24,244 nucleotides of DNA from a virus. Made by a program: the position numbers and the translations under genes. The notes beneath the pieces were generated by a model. The model had not been told where the DNA came from. It did no database searches and saw only the letters and a program-made list of their open reading frames with translations. Each line of letters begins with the position of its first letter. The first letter of the stretch is position 1. The stretch is from positions 1 through 24,244 of IMG/VR virus record IMGVR_UViG_3300007735_000512. One strand, given 5' to 3'. Below are positions 7,919 through 24,234 of this stretch, one piece after another.

Positions 7919-8386
7919 ATGTCTAAATTTTATTCCAAAAATGGAGAGGAACCTCAATCAATTCCATTTTTAATTCTTCCAGACGGAAGAACTAGAACCG
8001 GAGATGATTATACTGAAGAAGAATTAGAACTTTGTAAATATACTGGTCCCTATGATGTTCCAACATATGATGAAAATTTTCAAATATTGCAGTGGGATTC
8101 TAAAAATTTAGAATATGAAGTGTGCAATGTGTCCGATGAAACTTGTATGAAGTATATTCGGGAGTATAGAAATTATCACCTCAGAATTTCTGATCAATAT
8201 ATGATCGAAGATTTTCCAATTTCTAGTCTATCGAAAACTAAAATTAAAGAATATAGAGATTGGTTAAGAAATTTACCACAAAAAATTGAAAATAGGGGAT
8301 GTGAAATGCCAAGAACTTATGATGACTTAAAAAATTTAGTAGATTCAAAAATACCACCCATTCTCAATACATTAGAGGGAATTTAA
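7919..8386 (+). CDS. Putative tail-fibre assembly chaperone
   Basis: This gene encodes 155 residues and is preceded by a strong AAGGAG. The first 75 residues are acidic and aromatic (DGRTRTGDDYTEEELELCKY). Residues about 84-121 read RNYHLRISDQYMIEDF then PISSLSKTKIKEYRDWLRNLPQ. This resembles the phage tail assembly chaperone signature, in which an R-x-x-R/N-x-L-L-x-x-S/TDW..D.P segment is followed by a YRxxLRxLPQ segment. Such proteins fold or mature the adjacent fibre and are usually encoded directly downstream of it. Here it lies between fibre-type genes and 1 nt before the gene at 8388, which could be its client. It is soluble, with no membrane segment. The call rests on motif resemblance only. 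Confidence 0.55.
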   Translation: MSKFYSKNGEEPQSIPFLILPDGRTRTGDDYTEEELELCKYTGPYDVPTYDENFQILQWDSKNLEYEVCNVSDETCMKYIREYRNYHLRISDQYMIEDFPISSLSKTKIKEYRDWLRNLPQKIENRGCEMPRTYDDLKNLVDSKIPPILNTLEGI

Positions 8387-8387
8387 G

Positions 8388-9143
8388 ATGCCATCACCAA
8401 ATAAATTAAATGTTGTCAATAGACTTAGTGATAAAGAATTTAACTTATTTGTAAACAGTACTGTCGTTCAAAAACCCCAAAATTCTGTGGGTATTGCATC
8501 CACTACTATTACTTCAGGTAACATATGTTTGGTTGGTTCAAAAAGTCTTAGAACAAATAATATTAGAGCAAGTGTAGCTGTTCAGTCTTGTGGATCAGTT
8601 CCTGGTAGCGGCGCCAGTGGTAGACATGATAGTGGGTCGGGTCATTCTGAAACTTTCTATCCCGGTGGAACTGGAAATGGCGGAGGAAATTTCTTAATTT
8701 CCACTTTATCAAATTTTGACGTTGGTAATGCCTGCTGGGGTGTGAGTGTAGCAAGCACTTCAACAAAATTAACAAACGAAAATACATCTAGCAATTGGTT
8801 TTTGTTGGCATCTTCCCCACCATCGGCAATTGGTGCTCACATAAATGGACCACACGCGCCACACACACATCATCACGGTTCTCCTGGTAGTCCCGCTCCA
8901 GGCGTTCTATCTCCATTAAATTGCACATACGCTGCTAGGGGAGGGAGTGGAACTTGCGCTGATATATTTTTGTCTGTTACATGTGTCTCAGGTTGTCTAG
9001 TAGGTGCTGGAAATTCCAGTGGGTATGAAATGTCATCATCACAAGATAAATTAGTGCCTGCACCTTGCACATGTGGTGGCAGAGGTGCTACTACCTGCCC
9101 AGGATGGGTGCATGTTAATGTGTCAGCAAAATCTCCTAAGTAA
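8388..9143 (+). CDS. Cys- and His-rich virion-like protein of unknown function
   Basis: This gene encodes 251 residues and begins 1 nt after the putative chaperone gene. It starts MPSPNKLNVVNRLSDKEFNL. Two features stand out against the Cys-poor fibre neighbours. First, there are ten Cys residues, mostly after residue 55, including TCVSGC and PCTCGG. Second, there is a histidine cluster at residues 151-163 (HINGPHAPHTHHHG). Gly/Ser-rich segments (GSGASGRHDSGSGHSE) suggest exposed loops. HxH clusters in T4-like fibre tips bind metal ions, so a metal-stabilised distal tip is possible. Local base composition is also richer in G+C than its surroundings, hinting at a different origin. The function is unknown. 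Confidence 0.6.
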   Translation: MPSPNKLNVVNRLSDKEFNLFVNSTVVQKPQNSVGIASTTITSGNICLVGSKSLRTNNIRASVAVQSCGSVPGSGASGRHDSGSGHSETFYPGGTGNGGGNFLISTLSNFDVGNACWGVSVASTSTKLTNENTSSNWFLLASSPPSAIGAHINGPHAPHTHHHGSPGSPAPGVLSPLNCTYAARGGSGTCADIFLSVTCVSGCLVGAGNSSGYEMSSSQDKLVPAPCTCGGRGATTCPGWVHVNVSAKSPK

Positions 9144-9157
9144 AATATTACAAATCA

Positions 9158-9775
9158 ATGAAAAAACCTTTATTGTGGTATTTTACGGACATTCCAGAGG
9201 AAATTTGCAATTCCTTCGAAAAAGATATGGATTCTTATGATGATCAAGTTATAAATTCAACATTATCAAATAATATTATATATCCAAAAATAAGAAAATC
9301 AAAAAATGTTTGGATCCCAACAACACATTGGATTTATGGATTCATTTGGACTTATATATTAAAAGCAAATCAGGAAAATTTTAGATATGACATAACAAGC
9401 ATTGATGGACAGTCAATGCAATATACTTTATATGGAGATGGTGATTTTTATCAATGGCATACTGATGATGATTCAAATCATTACTCATCATTTTCTAAAC
9501 CAATTTCAATGTCAGAGGGGCAATTAATTGAGGATTATTTGACACTTCAAACAGAATATTCAAGAAAAATTTCTTTTTCTTTATTAATCTCAGATATAGA
9601 TGATTATGAAGGTGGAAATTTTCAAATTTTGGATGGAAATAAATCATATTTCACTCCAAGAAAAAGAGGAACTCTTATAATTTTTGATTCTAGAATGTCA
9701 CACAGAGTTTTAAAAGTTACAAAGGGGCAAAGAAAATCTTTAGTCGGATGGTGTATTGGTCCACGTTGGAAATAA
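9158..9775 (+). CDS. 2OG-Fe(II) oxygenase, PKHD / prolyl-4-hydroxylase type
   Basis: This gene encodes 205 residues. It carries the double-stranded beta-helix signature: the iron ligands H101-x-D103 in YQWHTDDD, the distal ligand H182 in FDSRMSHRVLKV, and R192 in TKGQRKSLVGWCIGPRW as the probable 2-oxoglutarate-binding arginine. The segment ISFSLLISDIDDYEGGNFQI between them is typical of this family. Members use Fe(II), O2 and 2-oxoglutarate to hydroxylate a protein side chain or a small molecule; such genes are common in marine cyanophages. It begins an island of sugar- and hydroxylation-type genes set among fibre genes, so a virion or host surface protein is a plausible substrate. It acts in the cytoplasm. 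Confidence 0.85.
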   Translation: MKKPLLWYFTDIPEEICNSFEKDMDSYDDQVINSTLSNNIIYPKIRKSKNVWIPTTHWIYGFIWTYILKANQENFRYDITSIDGQSMQYTLYGDGDFYQWHTDDDSNHYSSFSKPISMSEGQLIEDYLTLQTEYSRKISFSLLISDIDDYEGGNFQILDGNKSYFTPRKRGTLIIFDSRMSHRVLKVTKGQRKSLVGWCIGPRWK

Positions 9776-9779
9776 TTTT

Positions 9780-10397
9780 ATGAATAAAAACATTTCATGG
9801 ACATATAATGATGAATTTGAAAAGCATGGATTTTTTATTATTAAAAATTTGTGCTATCCCTCACTTCTATATTCAGAAGTTCCAAGTGATGATTTTAAAA
9901 ATAAAGTTTTAAATTATTACAATAGAATTAAATCAATTGAAATTTCTGATGAACCACAAGTATTCAATTCATCTTCTAGACGTAATTTTCCACCATATGA
10001 ACAATTTCAATTTAGTATAAAACCAATAATAGAAAATTTTATAGGAAGAAAATTGTATACAACTTATTGGTATGATAGGTTTTATTTTTTAAATCAAGAA
10101 TTGAAAATACATACGGATAAAGAGCAGTGTGAAATTTCTTGTAGTTTACATATTTCATCTAATCTCAAAAAATATTGGGATTTTAAATTAATGAATCTGT
10201 ATGGAGAAGAAAAATCAGTTCAATTAAATCCGGGAGATGCTATAGTATATAAAGGTATCCAAATACCACATTGGAGAGATCCCTTGCCATCAAGGCATGA
10301 TAAAAAAAATTCAACACAAAATGATGATACATACTATCATCAAGCTTTTTTTCATTATGTCTTACAAGATGGAAATTATGTTCAATTTGCTAATTAA
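9780..10397 (+). CDS. Putative 2OG-Fe(II) oxygenase (second, divergent)
   Basis: This gene encodes 205 residues from the ATG at 9780, which lies 4 nt after the previous stop. An upstream in-frame TTG at 9756 would overlap the previous gene by 20 nt and is less likely. A cupin-like core is visible: H111-x-D113 in LKIHTDKEQCEISCSLHI as iron ligands, a turn NPGDAIVYKGIQ, and H164 in IPHWRD as the distal ligand, with R166 nearby. The closing FFHYVLQDGNYVQF is typical of double-stranded beta-helix oxygenases. The overall sequence differs strongly from the 9158 product, so it is not a recent duplicate. The substrate is unknown. An Fe-binding, 2OG-dependent hydroxylase is the best reading of the motif order. 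Confidence 0.68.
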   Translation: MNKNISWTYNDEFEKHGFFIIKNLCYPSLLYSEVPSDDFKNKVLNYYNRIKSIEISDEPQVFNSSSRRNFPPYEQFQFSIKPIIENFIGRKLYTTYWYDRFYFLNQELKIHTDKEQCEISCSLHISSNLKKYWDFKLMNLYGEEKSVQLNPGDAIVYKGIQIPHWRDPLPSRHDKKNSTQNDDTYYHQAFFHYVLQDGNYVQFAN

Positions 10398-10403
10398 AAA
10401 AAC

Positions 10404-11381
10404 ATGAGTACGATTATTTTTATTGATGGTGGAATAGGAAGAGTTCTTTGCTCAATCCCGGCACTTTTAAAATACTACAGATTAAATCCAAATAAAGAAT
10501 GGTATGTGATTGTTGCTGGATGGGAGTATTTGTTTTGGGGAATTCCCGAACTTCAAAATAGATCTTTTCATTCAGAAACAAAAGGAATATTTGAAAATTA
10601 TTGGTTGAATGCAGAAGAAGTTATATCTCCAGAACCATATAGAGTTCCAGAATATTATAAAAATCAAATTTCTATGGCAGAGTCTTTTGATTTTGAAATT
10701 AATAAGACTACAGACCATTCAGATCTTCCAAATTTGGATTTTTTCTGTTCTTCTGAAGAAGTTGATATTGCATATAGTGTTTTAAAAACTGCAAAAGAAC
10801 ATCAAGGAAAAGATAAAACAATTGTGGTTCAACCATATGGGAGCACCGCAAATAAAAGAGAATATGGAATTGTTGATTTTAGCAATAGATCTATTCCTGA
10901 AGATTTTTACGAATATTTGGTTGATTGTTTAATGGAAGACTATAATGTAATTTATATGGGAGATTCTTCTCTTCATGACGGAAAAACTTTTATACCAAAT
11001 CCAGATGTTGGAATAAGAGAGTGGGCAACTATTATTCAATATTGTGATTATTTTATTGGTTGTGATAGTTGTGGGCAACATATGGCAAAAGCAGTAAATC
11101 AAAAAGCGTCTGTTTTTATTGCAGGAACTCATGAAACAAATGTATCTTATCCAAAAGATTTTCATATTATCAAAAAAGATTTGCCATTTTATCCTGATAC
11201 GATGAGAATAAGTGGATTTTCTTCAAACTTATCATCAAGGTTGAATGAACAGAGAGTAGAATTTTCAGAAGAAGAAATGTATAAACATTACAAACAAATA
11301 ATACTGCAAATTGAATCTCATTCTACCTTTGATTTTGAAGAAAATAAAATTGACAAAAATGAATATTTGATTCATAATTAA
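10404..11381 (+). CDS. GT9 / heptosyltransferase-like glycosyltransferase
   Basis: This gene encodes 325 residues and starts 6 nt after the preceding oxygenase gene. The C-terminal half shows the GT-B nucleotide-sugar domain typical of ADP-heptose LPS transferases: IVVQPYGST at 140-148 starting the domain, IPEDFYEYLVDCLMEDYNVIYMGD, then WATIIQYCDYFIGCDSCGQHMAKA ending at 230, and SVFIAGTHETNVSYP to 250. The N-terminal FIDGGIGRVLCSIPALLKYY matches the GxGD-like glycine loop and helix that open GT9 enzymes, although the usual GD pair is replaced. The enzyme probably transfers a sugar in the cytoplasm to a lipid, glycan or protein acceptor. Lying between 2OG oxygenases and fibre genes, it could modify the fibres. 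The acceptor is unknown. Confidence 0.68.
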   Translation: MSTIIFIDGGIGRVLCSIPALLKYYRLNPNKEWYVIVAGWEYLFWGIPELQNRSFHSETKGIFENYWLNAEEVISPEPYRVPEYYKNQISMAESFDFEINKTTDHSDLPNLDFFCSSEEVDIAYSVLKTAKEHQGKDKTIVVQPYGSTANKREYGIVDFSNRSIPEDFYEYLVDCLMEDYNVIYMGDSSLHDGKTFIPNPDVGIREWATIIQYCDYFIGCDSCGQHMAKAVNQKASVFIAGTHETNVSYPKDFHIIKKDLPFYPDTMRISGFSSNLSSRLNEQRVEFSEEEMYKHYKQIILQIESHSTFDFEENKIDKNEYLIHN

Positions 11382-11398
11382 GTTTATTCAAAATAAAA

Positions 11399-11542
11399 AT
11401 GGAAGAAACAGAATTTGAAAATCTCAAAAAAACTCTTAAAGTATTAAAATTTTTAGATTATACTGAAGATGACATTCAAAGAGTTTTAAAAATAGAGAAA
11501 AAAGAAATTAAAGAAATTATGAAATATTTTGATGTTATTTAA
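11399..11542 (+). CDS. Small charged helical protein, 47 aa
   Basis: An ATG at 11399 opens a 47-residue frame in the 191-nt gap between the glycosyltransferase and the third oxygenase. The product, MEETEFENLKKTLKVLKFLD and then YTEDDIQRVLKIEKKEIKEI with MKYFDVI, is highly charged and predicted helical, with hydrophobic residues spaced as in a small helical bundle or a helix-turn-helix. Spacing (17 nt after one stop, 30 nt before the next start) fits the operon. No Shine-Dalgarno is obvious. The function is unknown; the segment YTEDDIQRVLKIEKKEIKEI looks like a DNA- or protein-binding helix pair. Confidence 0.5.
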   Translation: MEETEFENLKKTLKVLKFLDYTEDDIQRVLKIEKKEIKEIMKYFDVI

Positions 11543-11572
11543 TAATATATAAGTATTGAAATGTAAAAAATA

Positions 11573-12241
11573 ATGAATTTAATTTTATTTGATAATTTTT
11601 TTGAAGGTCAATTTAGTGTTGATAATGTTAGAGAATTCGGTCTATCTCAATTTGTTGATAAAGATTTAATTAATGACAACTTTGACAATTATCCAGGAAT
11701 AAGAAGTAAATCTCTTTGTATCATCAACCCAAAATTATATGAATATATTAAATTTAAAGTAATAGAACCTATTTTAAATTTTTCTGAGCATAAAGAAAAT
11801 TTTAAAAATAAATGTGAACTGACAATAAGATATCATTTAACAACATCTATACATGAATGTGGATTAATTCATAGGGATTCGGTCTGGAATGAAAATAATT
11901 CAGAAAATTTAGTTTTTTCCGGAGTGATATATTTAAATCCAAATCCTCCAAAAAATTCTGGAACCAAATTGTTTAGAAAAAATTGTTTGAATAAACCAAC
12001 AATTCCATCTAGCAAATTTCTTTCTTTTATTACAAAAGATAAAGATATTATTTCATCTTTCAATAAAGAAAAAATTGAATATAACACAAAATATTTTGAT
12101 TTAAAATATGAAGTTCCAAACGTATATAACACTGCAGTAATATATCCAGGATATTATTATCATGCACCAGATCAATATTTTGGAGAAGGATTGGAAGATT
12201 CTAGACTTGTTATTGTTTTTTTTGTTAAGTTTATAGATTGA
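11573..12241 (+). CDS. Putative 2OG-Fe(II) oxygenase (third, DUF6445-like)
   Basis: This gene encodes 222 residues. The order of motifs fits a dioxygenase: I99-H100-R101-D102 (iron ligands H100 and D102) followed by FSGVIYLNPNPPKNSGTKLF, then a distal H197 in YPGYYYHAPDQYFG, and R211 in EDSRLVIVFFVKFID as the 2OG-binding arginine. The pattern of YLNxxPPxxxGT, then PGxxxH, then FGxxxxxSRLxxVFFV resembles the DUF6445 group of 2OG enzymes. It is unrelated in detail to the other two oxygenases, so three distinct hydroxylases lie within 3.1 kb. The codon use is strongly AT-rich, like its upstream neighbours. The substrate is unknown. Confidence 0.65.
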   Translation: MNLILFDNFFEGQFSVDNVREFGLSQFVDKDLINDNFDNYPGIRSKSLCIINPKLYEYIKFKVIEPILNFSEHKENFKNKCELTIRYHLTTSIHECGLIHRDSVWNENNSENLVFSGVIYLNPNPPKNSGTKLFRKNCLNKPTIPSSKFLSFITKDKDIISSFNKEKIEYNTKYFDLKYEVPNVYNTAVIYPGYYYHAPDQYFGEGLEDSRLVIVFFVKFID

Positions 12242-12246
12242 AAAGT

Positions 12247-12600
12247 ATGATAAAAATACCAATATCAACAGGAGAACTGTTAGATAAGATTTCTATACTC
12301 TCAATTAAGTCTCAATACACAAACAATCAATATGTCTTAAAAGAACTCCAAGACCTCATCCAAATCGCAAAGAAACATCAAGTTTATAATGATTCTTACC
12401 TTACAAAATTATTTCAAGTAAATCAAAAACTTTGGAAAATAGAAGATAGATTGAGAGAAAAAGAAAAACTTCAAGAGTTTGATGAAGAGTTTATAGAACT
12501 TGCAAGAAGTGTTTATATCACCAATGACTTAAGAGCACAAATCAAAAAAGAAATCAACGAAGAAACTCAATCAATTTATCAAGAGATAAAATTATATTGA
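12247..12600 (+). CDS. DUF6165-like protein
   Basis: This gene encodes 117 residues from the ATG at 12247. An in-frame TTG at 12238 would add three residues and overlap the previous stop. The opening MIKIPISTGELLDKISILSIK and the closing pattern LWKIEDRLREKEKLQEFDEEF, then FIELARSVYITNDLRAQIKKEIN match my recollection of the DUF6165 family, which has no known activity and is often encoded beside glycosyltransferases in surface-polysaccharide clusters. That association agrees with the GT9-like gene upstream. It is predicted all-helical and soluble. It starts 5 nt after the third oxygenase gene, which suggests a single transcript. Its last codons contain the next late promoter. Confidence 0.65.
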   Translation: MIKIPISTGELLDKISILSIKSQYTNNQYVLKELQDLIQIAKKHQVYNDSYLTKLFQVNQKLWKIEDRLREKEKLQEFDEEFIELARSVYITNDLRAQIKKEINEETQSIYQEIKLY

Positions 12601-18753: not shown

Positions 18754-18803
18754 AAATTGTTCACTAAATATTGATGCCTGCGTTGGGTGCAATCTTCACA
18801 GGT

Positions 18804-18829
18804 AGAAAAGGAGCATATGCTCCTTTTCT
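18804..18829. terminator. 26-bp perfect palindrome, probable bidirectional terminator
   Basis: The palindrome has arm AGAAAAGGAGC and centre ATAT. Folded as RNA it gives an 11-bp stem with a 4-nt loop and U-rich 3' half (CUUUUCU). The A-tract on the other side gives the same on the opposite strand. It could terminate upstream transcripts just before the late promoter. Confidence 0.6.
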
Positions 18830-18837
18830 TATAAATA
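18830..18837 (+). promoter_or_regulatory. T4-type late promoter TATAAATA
   Basis: This is an exact TATAAATA directly after the 26-bp palindrome and 26 nt before the endonuclease ATG. The expected start (about 18843) falls inside the 3' arm of the outer inverted repeat. Confidence 0.75.
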
Positions 18838-18863
18838 TTATTGCACCCAACAAAAGAACAGTT

Positions 18864-19691
18864 ATGACTTCTCAAAGTCCAAGAATTTACACATATAAAA
18901 TTACTTTTGAAGAAGTTCCTTACTATTATTATGGTGTAAAGAAGGAAAAATATTATAATCAAAAATATTTTGGTTCTCCTGTAACTAATAAGTGGTGTTG
19001 GAAACTATATACACCAAATAAGCAAATATTGGAATTTTTTGATTATAGTGATAGTGGATGGTTGAAAGCAAAAGAAATTGAAGATAAATTGATTAAACCA
19101 CTTTATCAAACAGATAAATGGTGTTTAAATGAAAATTGTGGTGGATTAATATCTCTTGAAATTTTGCGTGAGAGTGGTAAAAGAGCATATAAAAATGGTC
19201 TTCTTTTGTTGACGGCAGAGCAGAGAAAGAAAAATGGAAAAAGTGGGGGTACAAAAACAAAAGAACTTGGTTCTGGTATTCATGCATTAACTACGGAACA
19301 GAGAATAGAAAATGGAAGAAAAAGTGGATACAAAACACAAGAACTTGGTGTCGGTATTCATGCATTAACTACAGAACAGAGAAGAGAAAATGGTAAATTG
19401 ATAGGAAAACAACATTTTAAAAATAAAACTGCATGTTTTTCAATAACACCAGAAAAAAGAAAGGAAACAATTAAAAAATCTCACGAAACTAATAAAAAAA
19501 ATAAAACCGGAATATATGGAATATCAAAAGAAGAAAGACGAGAAATTGGTATAAAAGCATCTAAAAAAACGAATTCTCAAAAATGGGAATGTTGTGAAAC
19601 TGGTTATGCTTCAACTGCTGCTGGTGTTGCTGCTTACCAAAAAGCAAGAGGTATAGATACATCCAAGAATAATAGACGCAAAATATCATAA
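18864..19691 (+). CDS. GIY-YIG-like homing endonuclease 1
   Basis: This gene encodes 275 residues from the ATG at 18864. Longer in-frame starts (18771, 18774) would lie in the structured leader and break agreement with the second copy at 22543. The N-terminal 100 residues, IYTYKITFEEVPYYYYGVKK, then YFGSPVTNKW, then EIEDKLIKPLYQ and WCLNENCGG, look like a divergent GIY-YIG nuclease core (YTY...YYG, a GS motif, then a Glu helix and an LN-N-GG end). Residues about 110-215 contain three units of about 23 residues of the form ELGVGIHALTTEQRRENGK, the NUMOD-like DNA-binding repeats of phage homing nucleases. The tail KWECCETGYASTAAGVAAYQ then KARGID is shared with copy 2. It probably cleaves a specific site in related phage genomes and spreads its own gene. 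Confidence 0.7.
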   Translation: MTSQSPRIYTYKITFEEVPYYYYGVKKEKYYNQKYFGSPVTNKWCWKLYTPNKQILEFFDYSDSGWLKAKEIEDKLIKPLYQTDKWCLNENCGGLISLEILRESGKRAYKNGLLLLTAEQRKKNGKSGGTKTKELGSGIHALTTEQRIENGRKSGYKTQELGVGIHALTTEQRRENGKLIGKQHFKNKTACFSITPEKRKETIKKSHETNKKNKTGIYGISKEERREIGIKASKKTNSQKWECCETGYASTAAGVAAYQKARGIDTSKNNRRKIS

Positions 19692-22542: not shown

Positions 22543-23295
22543 ATGTATCCACGAGTTTATACATACAAGATTACCTTTGAGGAAGTTTTGTATTATTACT
22601 ATGGAGTTCATAAAGAGAAAAAGTTTGGTGAGTATTATATGGGTTCTCCATATACTCATAAATGGGTTTGGGATTTTTATACTCCAAAGAAACAAATATT
22701 AGAAATCTTTTCTTTTACTGATGAGGGTTGGTTAGAAGCACAAGAAGTTGAGAAAAGATTGATTAGACCAGTTTTTAATACAGATAATTGGTGCTTGAAT
22801 GAAAATGTTGGTGGTATGATTTCTTTGGAAATATCTAGTAAAGTGGGTAAAAGAAATTATGAAAATAATATAGGTTTGGCTAAATTATCAAAAGAACAAT
22901 TAAGCGAAAATGGAAAAATGGGTGGAGAAAAAGCACAAGAACTTGGAGTTGGAATTCATGGTATCTCAAAAGAAAAAGTGATTAAGAATGCAAAAAATGG
23001 AGGTCAAAAATCATATGAACTTGGAGTTGGAATTCATGGAATTTCAAAAGAAGAAAAAATTGAAATTGGAAGAAAATTTGGTGGAATAAGTGGAAAAAGA
23101 ACATATGAACTTGGTATTGGTGTTCATGGTCGGTCTAAACAAAAAATGAGTGAAGATGGTAAGAAAGGTGGTTCAATATCTGGAAAACAAAAATGGAAAT
23201 GTATTGAAACTGAATTTATAACTAATGCTGGAAATCTAACAAAATACCAAAAAGCACGGGGAATAGATACTAATAATAGGGTAAGAATTCAGTAG
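22543..23295 (+). CDS. GIY-YIG-like homing endonuclease 2
   Basis: This gene encodes 250 residues, homologous over its whole length to the product of 18864-19691. The N-terminal 100 residues (VYTYKITFEEVLYYYYGVHK, then YYMGSPYTHKW, VEKRLIRPVFN, WCLNENVGG) form a divergent GIY-YIG-like core. Residues about 105-225 hold four repeat units of about 23 residues with consensus ELGVGIHGISKEE..IG..GG, a NUMOD-like DNA-binding array, followed by KWKCIETEFITNAGNLTKYQ and KARGID. The copies differ in number and sequence of the repeat units, which may give different DNA targets. The stop overlaps the first base of the intergenic element at 23295. Homing activity is inferred from family. Confidence 0.7.
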   Translation: MYPRVYTYKITFEEVLYYYYGVHKEKKFGEYYMGSPYTHKWVWDFYTPKKQILEIFSFTDEGWLEAQEVEKRLIRPVFNTDNWCLNENVGGMISLEISSKVGKRNYENNIGLAKLSKEQLSENGKMGGEKAQELGVGIHGISKEKVIKNAKNGGQKSYELGVGIHGISKEEKIEIGRKFGGISGKRTYELGIGVHGRSKQKMSEDGKKGGSISGKQKWKCIETEFITNAGNLTKYQKARGIDTNNRVRIQ

Positions 23296-23375: not shown

Positions 23376-24200
23376 ATGAGAGTAAAAATTTGCTCGGATT
23401 TGCACCTTGAGTGTTGTGAAAATAATCACGGAGTTCCTGACTTGGGTTCGGGGGAAGTATTAATATTGGGTGGTGATATTTTATGTGCTCGTCACTTTAA
23501 GAAGGATGGTAATCTTCATAAAGTTTATAATGATTTTCTAAAAAAGTGTGCTGATAACTTTGATTGGATTCTGTATATTGCAGGAAACCACGAAGCATAT
23601 GGATACAACTATGAAGGAACTTGGAATGTTCTCAAAGAAAATCTTCCAGAGGGTATTCACCTAATGGAGAATAGTGTGGTAAAGATTTCTGATTGGGTAT
23701 TTCTTGGAGCAACTCTATGGACTGATTTTCGTAACGAGAATGCTCTGGAGATGATGGAAGCTTCCCAATGTATGAATGATTATAAGGTCATTCGTATTGG
23801 TTCTAACTATCGCAAACTAAATCCTGATGATACTCTGGGGTTTCATAAGAAATCTAAACAGTTTCTGTTGGATACTCTACCAACATTCAAGAACCAAAAA
23901 GTCTGGGTTCTTACTCACCATGCTCCCTCATATCAATCTGTACATCCAAAATACCGAAATGCTGGTATTGCGAATGGTGCTTATGTAAGTGACCTTGATA
24001 ATCTTATTTTGGATAATCCTCAAATCAAATACTGGAGCCATGGTCATACTCACGAAAGTATGGATTATATGATTGGTGATTGTAGAGTTGTATGTAATCC
24101 AAAAGGTTACCACCCAGCAGAAGTTAATCCAAACTTTGATCCAAACTTTGGGGTCGACACTTCTCAAACTGGCACAGGGACACTCCAAAACCCCCTGTGA
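23376..24200 (+). CDS. Calcineurin-like metallophosphoesterase
   Basis: This gene encodes 274 residues. All metal-binding motifs of the calcineurin-like phosphoesterase fold are present: D8-L-H10 in CSDLHLE, G33-D34 in LGGDI, G70-N71-H72-E73, H181 in LTHHAPS, and G223-H224-T225-H226 in SHGHTH. Such enzymes use two metal ions to hydrolyse phosphomono- or phosphodiesters; the substrate (nucleotide, nucleic acid or phosphoprotein) is not predictable here. It is soluble and cytoplasmic, and is complete with a good ribosome-binding site. The final 14 residues (DTSQTGTGTLQNPL) are encoded by a copy of the recurring intergenic element, so the reading frame runs into regulatory DNA rather than stopping before it. 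Confidence 0.88.
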   Translation: MRVKICSDLHLECCENNHGVPDLGSGEVLILGGDILCARHFKKDGNLHKVYNDFLKKCADNFDWILYIAGNHEAYGYNYEGTWNVLKENLPEGIHLMENSVVKISDWVFLGATLWTDFRNENALEMMEASQCMNDYKVIRIGSNYRKLNPDDTLGFHKKSKQFLLDTLPTFKNQKVWVLTHHAPSYQSVHPKYRNAGIANGAYVSDLDNLILDNPQIKYWSHGHTHESMDYMIGDCRVVCNPKGYHPAEVNPNFDPNFGVDTSQTGTGTLQNPL

Positions 24201-24211
24201 TGCCCTATAAT
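24156..24211 (+). promoter_or_regulatory. Intergenic element plus -10 promoter, inside gene end
   Basis: GACACTTCTCAAACTGGCACA (24156-24176), a CACAGGG/CCCTGTG stem (24173-24199) and TATAAT (24206-24211) repeat the arrangement at 19693-19748, including ACCCCCTGTGATGCC. It would drive the gene starting at 24235. Confidence 0.55.
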
Positions 24212-24234
24212 ACTCTCATACACAAAGAACTCAA

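Follow-up and report, generated by a model that had tools for sequence, protein, structure and literature searches.

A fiber-linked gene island of an uncultured cyanophage-like virus joins an oxygenase pair to a heptosyltransferase-fold protein and a DUF6165 protein

RESULTS

Organization of the island

The window analyzed here is a stretch of 24,244 bases (positions 1 to 24,244 of the virus record IMGVR_UViG_3300007735_000512) that resembles the tail-fiber region of T4-like cyanophages: Pfam and PHROG matches to fiber, baseplate, and fiber-assembly families flank both sides of an island of enzyme-like genes at 9158 to 12600. A near-identity search of the window among phages returned short matches only, to Synechococcus phages. 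The island lies on the plus strand and comprises g1 (9158 to 9775), g2 (9780 to 10397), g3 (10404 to 11381), a 47-codon open reading frame (ORF; approximately 11400 to 11543), g4 (11573 to 12241), and g5 (12238 to 12600), which overlaps g4 by 4 nucleotides (nt). The successive gaps are 4, 6, 18, 29, and −4 nt, i.e., at most 29 nt. For g2, the residue numbering used in a first-pass annotation of this DNA matches the ATG at 9780 and not the TTG at 9756. That annotation had described six closely spaced genes within a virion module, with fiber or tip genes on both sides. The layout was confirmed if the 47-codon ORF is counted as the sixth gene, and the flanks encode tail fibers, a fiber-assembly chaperone, and fiber-assembly-like proteins.

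Sites resembling the late promoter sequence ATAAATA precede several fiber genes (4579, 6062, 12600, and 12955), and none is found between 7054 and 12600. Their number in the window is not above chance, their placement alone being suggestive. The lack of such a site between 7054 and 12600 indicates that the island is probably transcribed by read-through from the upstream structural and fiber genes.

Three oxygenases of different families

The g1 product matches the 2OG-FeII_Oxy_3 family (PF13640, E = 1.1e-12) and phrog_61 (E = 2e-40; T4-GC 412), and is thus a 2-oxoglutarate (2OG)-Fe(II) oxygenase. Its iron- and 2OG-binding residues H101, D103, H182, and R192 are invariant in 43 aligned relatives. 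By sequence comparison, its nearest solved relatives are PKHD hydroxylases and one prolyl 4-hydroxylase (P4H).

The g2 product belongs to phrog_2954 (T4-GC 615), is called “ferrochelatase” in phage annotations, and has no match in Pfam or NCBIfam. Its AlphaFold2 model (predicted local distance difference test score [pLDDT], 92.7) was matched by Foldseek to the P4H of P. putida (E = 2e-8). The model has 455 matches in the PDB at E ≤ 0.001, and the 50 listed are 2OG oxygenases, which supports a double-stranded beta-helix fold for g2. Residues H111, D113, and H164 are invariant in 60 aligned relatives. The protein has no Arg at the standard 2OG-binding spacing after the distal His, and the invariant residues R166, H187, and H192 are candidates for this role. 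The model thus predicts a 2OG-Fe(II)-type oxygenase with a P4H-like fold. Identity with a ferrochelatase was rejected, as no match to a ferrochelatase family was found, and in view of the predicted fold and the invariant H111/D113/H164 triad this name should be abandoned. Nearness to PKHD and P4H enzymes, in sequence for g1 and in predicted fold for g2, hints that either protein may have prolyl hydroxylase activity.

The third oxygenase, g4, matches DUF6445 (PF20043, E = 3e-8; 34.2 bits for a gathering score of 24) and phrog_1644, labeled “minor coat protein.” It carries a full 2OG-Fe(II) signature, H100, D102, H197, and R211 being 100% conserved in 56 aligned sequences. Both R211 of g4 and R192 of g1 represent the basic 2OG-binding residue located past the distal His. 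Searches of PDB sequences with the g2, g3, and g4 profiles gave no significant match.

The first-pass annotation had singled out three different oxygenases by their HxD...H motifs, and the residues that it named proved exact in all three alignments. Comparisons of the g1 profile with those of g4 and g2 detected no relationship, and the idea that the oxygenases arose as duplicates of one another was rejected on this evidence. On this basis, g1, g2, and g4 are assigned to three different oxygenase families.

A heptosyltransferase-fold protein and a DUF6165 protein

The g3 product, a member of the virus-centered family phrog_8954, is predicted to adopt the GT-B fold (AlphaFold2 pLDDT, 92.1). Its best PDB matches in Foldseek are WaaC (E = 2.5e-9), a Veillonella GT9 protein, TibC, and WaaF. 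In an hhalign comparison with four Escherichia coli GT9 proteins (E = 3e-8), the C-terminal donor domain was aligned, and the donor-site motif D-[ST]-x-x-x-H located there is highly conserved in the g3 family (D221 in 63/63, S/T222 in 63/63, and H226 in 62/63 sequences). The N terminus departs from this picture. At identical position numbers, WaaC has G12-D13 and g3 has G12-R13, so that a GGxGR sequence replaces the GxGD of GT9 proteins. The catalytic Asp is invariant among the four E. coli GT9 proteins, and mutation D110A of TibC abolishes activity (PMC4358343), whereas the 63 aligned viral relatives of g3, as well as a Vibrio phage relative, all have Arg. In addition, g3 scores below the gathering threshold of PF01075 (13 bits versus 22), which 19 of its 63 relatives match at E ≤ 0.01.

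Thus, of the “GT9-like transferase” proposed by the first-pass annotation, the fold stands but one defining feature of GT9 is missing. Either the chemistry of g3 uses another residue, possibly the invariant E77, or g3 is no ordinary transferase. Heptose genes beside its relatives are a genomic hint that the donor could be ADP-heptose. A search for bacterial relatives in one-genome-per-species data yielded only seven contigs of metagenome-assembled genomes, which are probably viral, and no cellular context was gained. Structure prediction, named as a check by the first-pass annotation, thus returned the double-stranded beta-helix for g2 and a GT-B fold for g3. The assignment of g5 to DUF6165 was upheld (PF19662, E = 1.3e-9; 38.4 bits for a gathering score of 27).

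The island joins two modules

IMG/VR was surveyed independently for three of the genes, and after reduction to distinct loci (90% identity) there were 62 loci for g3, 59 for g2, and 37 for g5. In 56 of the 59 g2 loci, a g1 homolog adjoins g2 or is found close by. Using a crude motif list for fibers, which makes the counts approximate, we detected a fiber-like ORF no more than 3 kb away in 37/39 g2 loci, 20/50 g3 loci, 2/30 g5 loci, and 5/31 g4 loci. The difference from g4 loci is very strong for g2 (P = 5e-12) and weaker for g3 (P = 0.03); the background for any ORF in the surveyed loci, 300/869, is inflated by the choice of loci. The conserved linkage expected by the first-pass annotation therefore holds for the g1-g2 pair but not for g4, whose family is not fiber-linked elsewhere.

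The glycosyltransferase (GT) genes homologous to g3 have different company. A carbamoyltransferase gene is found within 4 kb in 50/62 g3 loci, compared with 1/59 g2 and 1/37 g5 loci, and genes for heptose-type kinases and nucleotidyltransferases occur near g3 only, except for one nucleotidyltransferase gene near a g5 locus. GT homologs are located between fiber genes and heptose-pathway or carbamoyltransferase genes. A DUF6165 gene lies within 1.1 kb of the GT gene in 10 of the 11 loci of the GT subfamily represented in the window and in 1 of 51 other GT loci (P = 1e-9). The survey thus bore out the tendency of DUF6165-like genes to neighbor glycan enzymes.

The island therefore joins two modules, the g1-g2 oxygenase pair and the GT-DUF6165 module (g3 and g5). 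Each usually lives alone, with a GT gene in only 2/59 g1-g2 loci and g1-g2 in 4/62 GT loci. Nevertheless, their union recurs in other viral contigs: g2 is near the GT gene in 4/11 loci of the GT subfamily of the window (L012, L014, L021, and L022) but in 0/51 others (approximately 6e-4, calculated by hand), such that all four GT loci with g1-g2 belong to this subfamily. In L021 and L022 the order is fiber tip, g1, g2, carbamoyltransferase, GT, and DUF6165, with 41 to 51% identity to the window for g1, g2, and GT. In isolates, g1-g2 has genes for tail fibers, sericin-like proteins, or structural proteins as neighbors: the pair comes directly after sericin-like or fiber-region proteins in S-MbCM6, S-SM2, and Bellamy, whereas in P-RSM4 and S-SSM5 it adjoins a carbamoyltransferase gene.

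Other genes were noted at these sites. In isolated cyanophages, genes for a tryptophan halogenase and for PhyH-like and leprecan-like proteins occupy the same fiber-tip hotspot as g1-g2 (L264, 1695 to 5558, Sf-CH11; L262 and L263, 2725 to 8480, P-RSM4 and S-SSM5). In marine virus AG-345-O18, very Cys-rich fiber-like proteins with many CC and CxxC sequences (L008, 6009 to 9154 and 13446 to 16709) adjoin a heptose/GT cluster.

A recombination boundary within g1

Comparison of the window with the sister contig L012, in bins of 100 bases, revealed a shared block with sharp edges at 9600 to 12600. Nucleotide identity is approximately 50 to 70% in the tip gene preceding the island and 68 to 77% in the 5′ part of g1, rises abruptly to above 90% near 9600, remains mostly between 82 and 100% up to 12600 (one bin, 79%), and then drops to 51 to 69%. 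The left edge is inside g1 and the right edge is the end of g5. The 47-codon ORF, also open in L012, is 97 to 100% identical across its length, and the two g3 genes differ by six synonymous and six nonsynonymous codons. This high identity, including that of g3, indicates that the block was shared recently while the fibers diverged.

An enzyme gene is thus crossed by a recombination boundary at position 9600. Upstream of it, g1 remains on the haplotype of the tip side, a pattern that in this one comparison would fit coadaptation of g1 to the tip. In the sister genome (contig 3300028553_000103; L137, 7334 to 8672), another g1-g2 pair and one more oxygenase gene follow a second Gly-rich tip gene, and the fiber region is seemingly longer than that of the window.

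A candidate substrate and hypervariable tips

Directly upstream of g1, on the same strand, 8388 to 9143 encodes a tip-like protein with Cys, Gly, and Pro residues and without a family match; its gene is the strongly diverged tip gene of the L012 comparison. It is preceded by a gene for a fiber-assembly chaperone-like protein (7919 to 8386, plus strand; Phage_tail_APC, PF16778, E = 3.9e-8; phrog_4912, tail fiber assembly). The tip-like protein contains 6.8% Pro and 24 PG or GP dipeptides per 1,000 residues, the highest value among the structural proteins of the window that were measured. Gly-rich tips near g1-g2 have a median Pro content of 6.75%, versus 4.12% elsewhere (P = 2.5e-6), an enrichment that may reflect lineage; their PG/GP content is not above that expected from composition (0.81). 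By position and composition, the 8388-9143 protein appears to be the best candidate substrate of g1 and g2.

In three loci, the GT cassette lies beside genes for a reverse transcriptase, bAvd, and Lcl_C-like target proteins (L013, 5462 to 7654; L017, 4234 to 6080; L020, 777 to 8556). Mismatches between the template and variable repeats of L017 (21/21) and L020 (8/8 and 13/13) all occur at template adenines, showing that these are real diversity-generating retroelements (DGRs). One variable repeat of L020 is within an ORF lying between the GT and DUF6165 genes. No DGR was found in the window.

Other features of the window

Searches of the window for tRNA genes and Rfam families gave no match. 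Two paralogous, repeat-rich ORFs at 18771 to 19691 and 22543 to 23295 resemble NUMOD3-type homing endonucleases but have no match in PHROG, Pfam, or NCBIfam. A 65-bp stretch at 24156 to 24220, with a CACAGGG/CCCTGTG hairpin and a TATAAT sequence, is kept in S-PM2, S-SRM01, ACG-2014f, and S-WAM2. It is possibly an early promoter element, and its predicted RNA fold is unremarkable (z = −0.67).

DISCUSSION

From the folds, motifs, linkage statistics, and module boundaries described above, we infer that the island may be a mobile cassette, expressed late, whose products hydroxylate and perhaps glycosylate the neighboring fiber tip, a reading to which we give a probability of roughly 45%. The g1 and g2 proteins would act as a cooperating pair, hydroxylating side chains of the Gly/Pro-rich tip during late infection, with proline as the first candidate; we hold this step with moderate confidence. 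With lower confidence, g3 and g5 would attach a sugar, more likely to this tip than to a glycan of the host envelope; the two types of acceptor are indistinguishable by sequence. In relatives, carbamoyl- or sulfotransferases would alter the added sugar further, and g4 would be an additional oxygenase acquired from another part of the phage genome. The variable set of GT genes together with the diversified tips suggests that the cassette serves to alter or mask the surface that binds the receptor.

Several points weigh against this proposal. The window contains no sugar-nucleotide or sugar-synthesis genes in its 24 kb, and g3 has Arg in place of the catalytic Asp. The proline enrichment of tips, with its possible lineage effect and ordinary PG/GP content, and the approximate fiber counts call for caution. 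The modules are mostly found apart. Since most loci with one module lack the other, the data do not support hydroxylation and then glycosylation as a fixed order of steps in a single pathway, as put forward by the first-pass annotation.

The functions of the two modules could instead be split, with g1-g2 modifying the tip and g3 and g5 altering the host surface, e.g., with a foreign lipopolysaccharide (LPS) sugar that blocks superinfection, their proximity to fibers reflecting a common insertion hotspot. We regard this as possible but somewhat unlikely. The GT and DUF6165 families do occur in clusters alongside genes for the heptose pathway, epimerases, sulfotransferases, and glycosyltransferases, DUF6165 loci are seldom near fibers, and Sullivan et al. 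termed such clusters LPS genes (PMC3037559). However, GT loci are near fibers more often than g4 loci, and the DGR-diversified tip that GT and DUF6165 flank in L020 and the late-operon position argue for a fiber acceptor. In addition, heptose is mostly absent from cyanobacterial LPS (PMC4515613), so that the normal acceptor would be missing, a mild argument against ordinary LPS mimicry in those relatives that have heptose genes. That the enzymes are unrelated passengers of a frequently recombining fiber region, devoid of any fiber-directed function, would explain the sharp recombination boundaries and the free mixing of the modules with halogenase, PhyH, DUF6445, and homing-endonuclease-like genes. 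We consider it improbable, since g1 and g2 stay paired and fiber-linked over many loci, unlike g4-type oxygenases, and since the catalytic residues of their relatives are invariant.

A metabolic role, in which 2OG oxygenases lower or sense host 2-oxoglutarate and thereby tune NtcA-dependent expression, was put forward in 2010 by Sullivan et al. for cyanophages (PMC3037559), and 14 of 16 cyanophage genomes have such oxygenases. It predicts neither the tight fiber linkage of g1-g2, nor the pairing of unrelated enzymes, nor the late-operon position, and is very unlikely to account for this island. Hypermodification of DNA would follow the same formal order of reactions, an oxygenase and then a glycosyltransferase acting on bases as in phages with TET-type enzymes. 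We deem it highly implausible here, given that there is no Tet_JBP match, that the fold of the GT is that of heptosyltransferases, that the best matches of the oxygenases are protein hydroxylases, that no methyltransferase gene accompanies the enzymes in the island, and that the pair is linked to fibers.

Modification of the tip by the cassette, the reading that we prefer, would matter beyond this virus. The 2OG oxygenases of ocean phages are common and largely unexplained, and a pair tied to the fiber tip points to a substrate that can be tested in phages available in culture. The name ferrochelatase, wrong but widespread, is corrected, and attention is drawn to a viral family that resembles heptosyltransferases but is altered at the catalytic site. 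If tips are modified, prediction of host range from fiber sequence alone is incomplete. A fuller scheme can be envisioned, in which a phage pathway hydroxylates and then glycosylates its tip by means of the oxygenase pair and of a new heptosyltransferase-fold family that uses Arg where the catalytic Asp normally stands, the target of the sugar cassette in relatives being a DGR-hypervariable tip, so that the receptor-binding surface would be tuned both genetically and chemically. Taken as a whole, this scheme is quite doubtful.

The single parts of the island are already known as gene clusters, and there are precedents in principle for glycosylation of virions by phages and for hydroxylation with glycosylation by mimivirus (PMC12363180, PMC9546862). 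As far as we found in the open-access literature, the fiber-linked oxygenase pair with a reassigned g2, the GGxGR heptosyltransferase-fold family, and the recurrent union with DUF6165 appear to be new. By sequence and adjacency, g1 and g2 are members of the cyanophage T4-GC 412 and 615 pair (phrog_61 and phrog_2954), from which the window differs by the union with GT-DUF6165 and in which the published ferrochelatase name does not match the predicted fold. In the P-SSM2 and S-SSM7 “LPS” clusters (T4-GC 302 to 308), the g3 homolog T4-GC 302 adjoins carbamoyltransferase and heptose genes near fibers; sugar-synthesis genes are present there, unlike in the window. The g3 protein resembles the ADP-heptose heptosyltransferases WaaC and WaaF of family GT9 in its GT-B fold and D-[ST]-x-x-x-H motif but differs from them by Arg instead of Asp13, a score under the Pfam cutoff, and a location outside an LPS operon. 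It is also similar in fold to the protein heptosyltransferases TibC and BAHT, which set a precedent with heptosylation of an adhesin (PMC4358343), although it lacks an equivalent of the base Asp110 in the GD position and the similarity is remote, with 8 to 11% identity. In the mycobacteriophages Che8, Corndog, and Myrna, virion proteins are glycosylated by a GT that the phage itself encodes (Freeman et al. 2023, cited in PMC12363180); according to the account given there, the targets are the capsid and tail tube, the GT is of another type, and no oxygenases are described. A functional precedent is L230 of mimivirus, a viral enzyme by which a collagen-like protein of the virus is first hydroxylated and then glycosylated (PMC9546862). 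The principle of such a pathway is therefore known, but it would be new in phage fibers, as the first-pass annotation had held: mimivirus is a eukaryotic virus, and L230 is a single fused collagen lysyl hydroxylase and glucosyltransferase with another type of GT, acting on collagen lysine.

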